64,000 nucleotides of DNA from assembly GCA_018401275.1 (NCBI GenBank), contig JAGYKW010000004.1, positions 1 to 64,000 of the forward strand. Reading direction: 5' to 3'. The first letter of the stretch is position 1; the number at the start of each line of letters is the position of its first letter. Positions 25,498 through 28,383 of this stretch are shown in pieces. Source of the stretch: Nitriliruptoraceae bacterium (GTDB lineage: Bacteria; Actinomycetota; Nitriliruptoria; Nitriliruptorales; Nitriliruptoraceae). A model generated the notes under the pieces. It saw nothing but the letters and a program-made list of their open reading frames with translations, made no database searches and had not been told where the DNA came from. The position numbers were made by a program, and so were the translations under genes.

Positions 25498-26949
25498 GTG
25501 TCCGACATGCTCGACGCCGACCAGGCCGCCCAGCTCGGGCGGCTGGCCGACGTGCACCCCGAGGTGCGCGAGCTCGGCGAACGCTTCGAGGCGGCCGGGC
25601 ACGAGCTCTACCTCGTGGGCGGGTCGGTGCGCGACACGCTGCTCGCCGGCACGGACGCTGCGGTCGACACGCAGCGCATCGACCTCGACCTCGCGACGTC
25701 GGCGCGTCCCGAGGAGACCGAGCGCATCCTGCGCGGCTGGGCCGACGCGGTCTGGCTGACCGGCGCGGCGTTCGGCACGGTGTCGTGCCAGCGCGAGCGG
25801 GACGGTGCACCGGCGCGCACCATCGAGATCACCACGTTCCGCGCCGACACCTACGTCGCCGGCTCGCGTCACCCGAGCGTCGAGTTCGGCGACCGCATCG
25901 AGGACGACCTCGCGCGCCGCGACTTCACCGTCAACGCGATGGCCGTGCGGGTGCCTGACTTCGCGTTCGTCGATCCGCACGGCGGGCTCGCGGACCTGCG
26001 CCGACGACGGCTGGTCACGCCGATCGATCCGCGCGTCTCGTTCAGCGACGATCCGCTGCGCATGGTCCGCATGGCGCGCTTCGTGTCGGTGCTCGATGCG
26101 GAGGTGGAGGAGGGGACGCTCGCCGCTGCGGAGGCCATGGTCGACGCGCTGTCCACCGTCTCGGCCGAGCGCATCCGCGACGAGCTGGTGCGCCTGATGG
26201 CCGGCCGAGCACCGGCGCGCGGCATCGACCTGCTCGTGCGGACCCGGCTCACGCAGCACGTCATCCCTGAGCTCAGTGCGCTCGCCGTGTGCATCGACCC
26301 CGAGCACCGGCACAAGGACGTCTACCACCACACGCTCGCCGTGATCGAGAACGCGATCGCGCTGGAGTCCGACGGGCCCGACGTCGTGCTGCGCCTCGCC
26401 GCGCTGCTGCATGACCTCGGCAAGCCGCAGACGCGCGAGATCCACAGCGACGGGACGGTCACGTTCCACCATCACGACGTCGTCGGTGCGCGCATGGTCC
26501 GCAACCGGATGCGTGAGCTGCGCTTCGACAAGGTGACGATCAAGCAGGTCAGCGAGCTCGTCCGGCTCCACCTGCGCTTCCACACCTACGAGGCCGGCTG
26601 GACCGACTCGGCGGTGCGCCGTTACGTGCGTGACGCGGGTGAGGTGCTCGAGCGGCTCAACCTGCTGACGCGCGCGGACGTGACGACGGCCAACACGCGC
26701 AAGGAGCAGGCGATCCAGAACCGGGTCACCGAGCTCGAGGAGCGCATCGACCATCTGCGCGCGCAGGAGGAGCTCGATGCGCTGCGACCTGCGATCGACG
26801 GGCGCCGCATCATGGACCACCTCGGGATCGCCCCCGGCCCGGAGGTCGGTGAGGCGTGGCAGTTCCTGCTCGACCTGCGCATCGAGCACGGGCCGATGGA
26901 GGACGACGCGGCGCTCGCCGCGCTCGACGCGTGGTGGGCGCAGCGCTAG
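25498..26949 (+). CDS. pcnA: CCA tRNA nucleotidyltransferase / polyA polymerase family
   Basis: 483-residue class II nucleotidyltransferase that adds or repairs the 3' CCA of tRNAs. The head has LYLVGGSVRDTLL and RIDLDLAT (metal-binding acids), then RRDFTVNAMAV and DPLRMVRMARF; the body has an HD domain (AALLHDLGKP and a downstream FHHHDVVG). GTG at 25498 follows GGAG by 8 bases; an in-frame extension to 25342 lacks support. It diverges from the NUDIX gene across 268 bp. tRNA-Gly in this window lacks an encoded CCA, consistent with need for the enzyme. Confidence 0.93.
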   Translation: MSDMLDADQAAQLGRLADVHPEVRELGERFEAAGHELYLVGGSVRDTLLAGTDAAVDTQRIDLDLATSARPEETERILRGWADAVWLTGAAFGTVSCQRERDGAPARTIEITTFRADTYVAGSRHPSVEFGDRIEDDLARRDFTVNAMAVRVPDFAFVDPHGGLADLRRRRLVTPIDPRVSFSDDPLRMVRMARFVSVLDAEVEEGTLAAAEAMVDALSTVSAERIRDELVRLMAGRAPARGIDLLVRTRLTQHVIPELSALAVCIDPEHRHKDVYHHTLAVIENAIALESDGPDVVLRLAALLHDLGKPQTREIHSDGTVTFHHHDVVGARMVRNRMRELRFDKVTIKQVSELVRLHLRFHTYEAGWTDSAVRRYVRDAGEVLERLNLLTRADVTTANTRKEQAIQNRVTELEERIDHLRAQEELDALRPAIDGRRIMDHLGIAPGPEVGEAWQFLLDLRIEHGPMEDDAALAALDAWWAQR

Positions 26950-27365
26950 CGGCGCGGCGGCAGCGGGACCTTGCCGAGCACGATCCGGCGGACGTCGCGG
27001 TGCGGCACGGAACCGAACGTCCGGCTGTCGATCGACCATCCGGGATCGTCACCGACGACCTCGACGCCGTCCGGGGTGATCGCGGTCACGCGCTTGATGA
27101 TGAGGTGCTCGCGGGCGCCCGGCTCGCTGAGCACGACCATGACGCCCGGTCGCACGAGCCGTCGTCGCGTCTCCCATGCGGTGCCGTGCAGCGGACCATC
27201 GCCGCTGACGGGCGGGAGCGGCACGGTCAGCACGAGGTCGCCCTCACGCAGGGTCGGTCGCATCGAGAGGCCGCGCACGCGCATGAGGCTGCGACGAAGG
27301 CCGATGCCCACGGCCGCGGTCGCGATCAGCGCTGACGCGGCGGCGAGCCCACGGGGTCTGCGCAC
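26946..27365 (-). CDS. sodX: Nickel-type superoxide dismutase maturation protease SodX (S26 family)
   Basis: 139-residue signal-peptidase-like protein with one N-terminal helix, the Ser motif VRGLSMRPTLREGD and the Lys motif EHLIIKRVTAI, giving a Ser/Lys dyad. It is divergent from sodN, and SodX-type peptidases remove the NiSOD propeptide to expose the nickel-binding His. I chose GTG at 27365 because GGAGGAGG precedes it; a much longer frame upstream crosses the divergent promoter region and is not real. It overlaps the end of pcnA by 4 bp, tail to tail. Confidence 0.88.
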   Translation of the reverse strand: MRRPRGLAAASALIATAAVGIGLRRSLMRVRGLSMRPTLREGDLVLTVPLPPVSGDGPLHGTAWETRRRLVRPGVMVVLSEPGAREHLIIKRVTAITPDGVEVVGDDPGWSIDSRTFGSVPHRDVRRIVLGKVPLPPRR

Positions 27366-27528: not shown

Positions 27529-27972
27529 ATGCTGAACCGTCCGAACCGCCTCAGCCGCCTGACGAACCTCCTGCGGCCCATCGACACCGTCGACGCGCAC
27601 TGCGACCTGATGTGCGGGGTCTACAACCCGGCCCAGGCCCGCATCGAGGCCGAGTCCGTCCACATGACCGCGGTCAAGTACCACGAGTCCGACGACGAGA
27701 CGTTCCGCCAGCGCTGCGTCACCATCAAGGAGGAGCGTGCCGAGCTCGTCAAGCACCACCTGTCGGTGCTGTGGACGGACTACTTCAAGCCGAACCACCT
27801 CGAGGAGTACCCGGACCTGCACGAGAAGTTCTGGCTCGCGATCAAGGCGGCCGGTGACGCGAAGAAGACGATGGACCCGAAGGCCGGCGAGGAGCTGCTG
27901 CGCCAGATCGACGCCATCAGCGACATCTTCTGGGCGACCAAGGGCGGCAAGCCGTCCTGGATGACGGCCTGA
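27529..27972 (+). CDS. sodN: Nickel superoxide dismutase, variant hook
   Basis: 147-residue NiSOD precursor converting superoxide to peroxide and oxygen. A 23-residue leader ends at ..DTVDA and is expected to be cleaved before His24. The nickel hook reads HCDLMCGVYNPAQARIEAE: His24, Cys25 and Cys29 are kept, but position 5 of the hook, normally Pro, is Met28, and the usual Asp10 is Asn33. The rest (KYHESDDETFRQRC.., HLSVLWTDYFKPNHLE, PDLHEKFW) matches the family. ATG at 27529 follows GAGGAG. It is divergent from sodX. Confidence 0.93.
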   Translation: MLNRPNRLSRLTNLLRPIDTVDAHCDLMCGVYNPAQARIEAESVHMTAVKYHESDDETFRQRCVTIKEERAELVKHHLSVLWTDYFKPNHLEEYPDLHEKFWLAIKAAGDAKKTMDPKAGEELLRQIDAISDIFWATKGGKPSWMTA

Positions 27973-28002: not shown

Positions 28003-28383
28003 ATGGCTGAGGGCCGTGTCGACTACCGCCTCCAGCGGCGCGTCGCGCTCGACAACCTGTCGGTCGCGAGCCGTGCGCTCGAGCAGCACTGCGACGCGCA
28101 CCCGGAGCTGCTGCGGGCCGCCAAGCATCTCGGCGAACCGCGCGGCGAGGACTGCCCTGTCTGCGACGAGGTCGAGCTCGTCAGCCTGCACTACGCGTTC
28201 CTGCAGAACGGGCCGAAGTCGCAGGGCGGCCGGGTCGTCGAACCGGCACGGCTCGCGCGCTACGCCGAGCGGCACGGCGACCTGCTGGTCTACGAGGTCG
28301 AGGTCTGCCGCGGCTGCCACTGGAACCACCTGGTGTCGCAGCGCAGCGTGAGACGGCCGGCACGCGCCGTCGGGACCGCCTGA
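28003..28383 (+). CDS. DUF5318 protein with zinc-ribbon-like cysteines
   Basis: 126-residue actinobacterial protein like mycobacterial Rv0049. The conserved parts are RRVALDNL, CDAHPELLRAAKHLGEP, the first Cys pair CPVC and the second in VEVCRGCHWNHLV. Two CxxC pairs suggest a bound zinc. ATG at 28003 has GGAGG upstream and lies 30 bp after sodN, so co-transcription is possible. Function is unknown; in mycobacteria the homologue is next to ponA1. Confidence 0.85.
   Translation: MAEGRVDYRLQRRVALDNLSVASRALEQHCDAHPELLRAAKHLGEPRGEDCPVCDEVELVSLHYAFLQNGPKSQGGRVVEPARLARYAERHGDLLVYEVEVCRGCHWNHLVSQRSVRRPARAVGTA

Follow-up and report, generated by a model that had tools for sequence, protein, structure and literature searches.

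We examined a 64,000-nucleotide stretch of DNA (the window; positions 1 to 64,000 of contig JAGYKW010000004.1, assembly GCA_018401275.1) from a Nitriliruptoraceae bacterium of the Actinomycetota. It carries a gene, sodN, for a nickel superoxide dismutase (NiSOD) whose nickel-binding hook has methionine at mature position 5 (Met5) where the textbook residue is proline (Pro5). The gene and its parts are as follows.

27529 to 27972, + strand: sodN, NiSOD precursor of 147 amino acids plus stop (TIGR02753, PF09055).
27529 to 27597, + strand: leader of 23 amino acids ending in ...TVDA (sequence); judging from known NiSODs, its cleavage would expose His1.
27598 to 27630, + strand: nickel hook HCDLMCGVYNP, mature residues 1 to 11 (sequence; conservation in the family).
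27610 to 27612, + strand: Met5 codon ATG, textbook residue Pro5 (sequence, family survey).
27625 to 27627, + strand: Asn10 codon AAC, replacing Asp10 (sequence, family survey).
27598 to 27969, + strand: mature NiSOD, predicted four-helix bundle (AlphaFold2, Foldseek).

Translation of 27529-27972 on the + strand yields the leader MLNRPNRLSRLTNLLRPIDTVDA, followed by HCDLMCGVYNPAQARIEAESV... at the mature start. The product scores 149.3 bits against the NCBIfam sodN model TIGR02753 (cut-off 90) and 140.7 bits against Pfam Sod_Ni PF09055 (cut-off 25, E-value 4.8e-41), and the reading frame is therefore a real gene and not a chance open reading frame. These scores bear out the identification as NiSOD made in an initial annotation, and a re-reading of the sequence confirmed the hook that it had placed from 27598 on, together with the changes of Pro5 to Met and of Asp10 to Asn. 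No second Sod_Ni gene is present in the 1.73 Mb genome. The residue preceding His1 is alanine in nearly all relatives, whatever their hook type.

The ligands His1, Cys2 and Cys6, already listed as retained in the initial annotation, lie at the presumed mature N terminus and are invariant in all relatives. Also kept are the second-shell residues Asp3, Tyr9, Glu17, Arg47, Tyr62, Lys64 and Lys89. The roles of all ten residues are established in Streptomyces NiSOD. Those of His1, Cys2, Cys6, Tyr9, Glu17 and Arg47 are described in PMC12933891 and PMC8910529. The Streptomyces enzyme (SodN; PDB 1t6u, 1t6q, 1t6i, 1q0d) and the window protein have these ten residues and a four-helix fold in common, at about 55% identity. 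This fold, predicted for the monomer, comes from an AlphaFold2 model of the mature protein with a mean predicted local distance difference test score (pLDDT) of 93, for which the best Foldseek match is 1t6u_A (template modeling score 0.88/0.94, E-value 7.5e-10). The window protein differs from Streptomyces NiSOD in having Met5 for Pro5, Asn10 for Asp10, a different C-terminal tail, and an FW motif at positions 78-79 in place of the VN or IN of Streptomyces. The cyanobacterial NiSOD hook (PMC2234264) is likewise N-terminal and belongs to PF09055, but it keeps the proline, in a Gly4-Pro5 context (HCDGPC...).

Met5 is a fixed property of this protein in the window's own family. Twenty-eight family genomes carry NiSOD, and every one of them encodes Met5. 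No differences occur among the 28 proteins at hook residues 1-9 and 11, and yet synonymous variation is seen at codons 2, 3, 4, 6, 7, 8 and 11 of the hook, a combination that indicates purifying selection and neither decay nor error. The Met5 codon is also ATG in an independently assembled congener (G003; L016/L031), and this congener and the Nitriliruptoraceae sequence L031 have the same NiSOD protein. Across the window's class, the 56 genomes with NiSOD divide into 38 with Met5, 17 with Pro5 (5 HCDLP and 12 HCDIP) and one with Phe5. The hook thus is not a singular variant.

The distribution extends well beyond the class. A Met-hook scan of 85,000 species genomes returned 72 stretches, about 50 of which are real NiSODs, in organisms labeled Nitriliruptoraceae, Nitriliruptorales, Euzebyales, Egibacter, Acidimicrobiia, Saccharibacteria, Spechtbacteria and others. 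We also surveyed 396 Actinomycetota genomes with a pattern that left positions 3-5 and 10 free and required His1, Cys2, Cys6, Gly7, Tyr9 and Pro11. It gave 108 credible hooks (71 Pro, 25 Met, 11 Tyr and 1 Phe), a manual count from the matches listed from which one further match, G316, was set aside as unlike a NiSOD hook; relatives of the window are overrepresented in the sample, and these counts are not global frequencies. Outside the window's class the actinobacterial hooks comprise 59 Pro, 11 Tyr and 4 Met, and those from 287 Patescibacteria genomes comprise 13 Pro, 2 Met and 1 Ala. The counts establish that Pro5 is no invariant of the NiSOD family, and Met is the commonest alternative to Pro at this position. 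Phe5 (HCDLFCGVYDP, L109) and Ala5 (HCDLACGVYDP, L198) are known to us from one example each, and one genome, G342, carries two different Met5 NiSODs (L117 and L140).

The first nine residues of the protein have been given as a conserved HCXXPCXXY (PMC12933891, 2026), and H-C-X-X-P-C-G-X-Y has served to decide which proteins count as NiSODs (PMC4460010). The window protein departs from this consensus at Met5. We treat the consensus as too narrow, and as no bar to SodN membership for a Met5 protein, because 37 of the 108 actinobacterial hooks fail it. Likewise, the hook called usual in the initial annotation, HCDLPCGVYDP, is the rule for solved structures and too narrow for the whole family. Met5 is a natural, clade-wide trait of a large bacterial group, and the published motif overstates how essential Pro5 is. 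Neither HCDLMCG nor HCDLYCG was found in the open-access papers searched, among which the classic surveys of NiSOD from subscription journals are not included.

An origin of the gene in phages or plasmids was considered and rejected on the basis of viral, phage and plasmid searches. No NiSOD hook was found in viral contigs or phage records, and only two plasmid records contain relatives, at 62% and 33% identity.

The history of the non-proline hook was assessed on a tree of 142 sequences, which was built from approximately 110 columns with the hook excluded and contains many weak forks. Pro5 is basal, and most Met5 sequences fall in one large region that encloses a Tyr5 clade (support 96) and the Phe5 sequence. 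Position 5 changes nine times in all. With 8 Met/non-Met changes on the free tree and Met5 sequences of Patescibacteria in separate places, Met5 may have arisen repeatedly or passed between Actinomycetota and Patescibacteria, a history to which we give somewhat less than an even chance and which would be compatible with a functional Met5 enzyme. However, constraining all non-Pro hooks to one clade is not rejected by the approximately unbiased (AU) test (p-AU 0.63) and even yields a higher likelihood, and about 110 columns are too few to settle the matter. A single origin with later changes to Tyr, Phe and Pro and several separate origins are both compatible with these results.

Other positions vary together with residue 5. 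Asp10 is present in all 55 Pro5 sequences (outside a divergent Patescibacteria group) and in those with Tyr5, Phe5 or Ala5, whereas Asn10 (21 sequences) and Tyr10 (10 sequences) are confined to Met5 proteins. The Asn10 of the window protein is a separate, clade-limited change. All 28 family members have Asn or Tyr at position 10, and among them Asn10 is paired with Ala12 (17 cases) and Tyr10 with Glu12 (11 cases), so that positions 10 and 12 possibly form a coupled pair in the NiSODs of this family. When mapped by parsimony, position 10 changes six times, each time on a Met5 branch. Met5 branches account for about 28% of tree length, although this association is post hoc and rests on an uncertain tree. 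Lys occupies position 90 in 77 of 77 non-Pro sequences but in just 27 of the 55 with Pro, and enrichment where position 5 is not Pro is likewise seen for Met92 and Asp87. Shared ancestry can explain these latter associations, and we claim no contact between the residues.

The Tyr5 hooks (HCDLYCGVYDP; 11 sequences, L159-L164, L177 and L203-L206) come from several actinobacterial families. Like the window protein, they have a non-Pro position 5 and are nested in the Met5 region of the tree. Unlike it, they carry Phe62 in all 11 cases, have Thr or Ala in place of Lys64 in all 11, and have lost Arg47 in 4 of the 11. Two Met5 sequences that adjoin the Tyr5 clade in the tree, L032 and L037, have Phe62 and keep Lys64, which suggests that the pocket was rebuilt stepwise. 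A bolder proposal, which we regard as speculative and rather unlikely, is that residue 5 defines alternative natural classes of nickel hook, in which loss of Pro5 frees Asp10 to change and one branch acquired Tyr5 as Tyr62 and Lys64, residues of the substrate gate, were lost.

Two neighboring genes accompany sodN.

26946 to 27365, - strand: SodX-like S26 signal peptidase, divergent to sodN (best match TIGR02754; PF10502 Peptidase_S26).
28003 to 28383, + strand: DUF5318 protein, function unknown, immediately downstream of sodN.

For the SodX-like gene a GTG start near 27365 was chosen, in an open frame that extends to 27587. TIGR02754 is the best family match of its product (E-value 3.5e-14, scored on the over-long open reading frame), and an S26 peptidase domain that scores above the PF10502 cut-off adjoins sodN in divergent orientation. 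In many relatives with Met5, Tyr5 and Pro5 hooks, a candidate peptidase motif has this same placement.

Alternative superoxide dismutases (SODs) are scarce in these organisms. Fe/Mn SOD was found in none of 35 family genomes by a search whose control was positive in 12 of 14 reference genomes, and it is absent from 22 of 25 other carriers of non-Pro hooks. Cu/Zn SOD is present in 2 of the 35 family genomes, neither of them the window's. SodN would be the SOD of these bacteria, if any SOD of a known kind is present. Genomes of the window's genus measure about 1.7 Mb (1.73 Mb for that of the window, G000) versus 2.3-5.6 Mb for family relatives, a gap in size that suggests genome reduction in the genus.

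The Met5 hook most probably operates much as the Pro5 hook does. In the scheme that we propose, the SodX-like peptidase would cut the 23-residue leader and free His1. Nickel would be coordinated by the amine of His1, the backbone amide of Cys2 and the thiolates of Cys2 and Cys6 and, when oxidized, also axially by the imidazole of His1. Superoxide would be dismuted at a hexamer-type site resembling that of Streptomyces. Residue 5 would be a non-ligand that closes the Cys2-Cys6 chelate loop, and the position would need merely a tolerated apolar or aromatic residue; so loose a demand would allow the change from Pro to Met in a large clade and to Tyr and Phe in sub-clades. Replacing Pro by Met would lift the ring constraint and introduce a backbone NH, a potential donor to a thiolate. 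Nickel-binding HCDLPCG mimics, described as catalytically active, have been modeled with a trans Leu4-Pro5 bond (PMC5722923), suggesting that a cis-Pro is dispensable for a working hook, at least in peptides.

From its sequence, conservation, predicted fold and gene context, we infer that the window protein binds nickel, is active and has a working hook geometry, and it is very probably a functional SodN-family NiSOD whose hook naturally has a residue other than proline at position 5. Several observations weigh against this conclusion. The hook is the weakest part of the structural model (mean pLDDT 67 over residues 1-10), and the SodX-like protein scores 53.0 bits against TIGR02754, the Ni-SOD maturation protease, below the cut-off of 63.25. 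A congener whose genome is 97% complete (G001) has no match to the Ni, Fe/Mn or Cu/Zn SOD families, which means that the enzyme may be dispensable in the genus, although either SOD loss or a missing contig could account for this result. A NicO-type nickel transporter was not found in the window's genome, where other nickel importers were not searched for. Our literature search found no Met5 enzyme with reported nickel content or SOD activity. The initial annotation had held that many known active Met5 NiSODs would refute its reading; natural Met5 sequences indeed are many, but measured activity was found for none.

The lack of the gene in the congener and of a detected NicO transporter would fit a degenerate or repurposed NiSOD fold that holds a different metal or no longer dismutes superoxide, an explanation that we consider improbable beside the purifying selection evident in the hook. 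About equally improbable is a role for the Met5 sulfur at nickel, whether it serves as a weak additional ligand or guards the thiolates as a sacrificial antioxidant. Met is the sole residue at position 5 in the window's family and the most frequent substitute for Pro overall, but in related hooks this site is filled by Tyr, Phe or Ala, so the sulfur is not required, and residue 5 is no ligand in the established geometry (ligands listed in PMC12933891). The special role that the initial annotation gave to this sulfur is accordingly disfavored. An assembly error at this codon, such as the misread CCG that the initial annotation had allowed for, or a pseudogene has a negligible probability: the same ATG recurs in independently assembled congeners and throughout the 28 family genomes, and reaching ATG from CCN requires at least two base changes. 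Overall, the interpretation given in the initial annotation is partly supported, and a functional NiSOD with a natural non-proline hook is the reading that we prefer.

These findings indicate that the published hook motif merits correction, as an HCXXPCGXY filter would drop roughly one in three of the hooks surveyed in Actinomycetota. Natural enzymes with Met5, Tyr5, Phe5 or Ala5 offer a ready test of the role of cis-Pro5 in the hook. Of the leads that emerged, the Tyr5 clade, which has Phe62 and lacks Lys64, is the most surprising. If Tyr5 was indeed acquired there as Tyr62 and Lys64 were lost, the hook, and not a helix, would supply the second gating phenol, and superoxide guidance would have been rebuilt within the NiSOD family.
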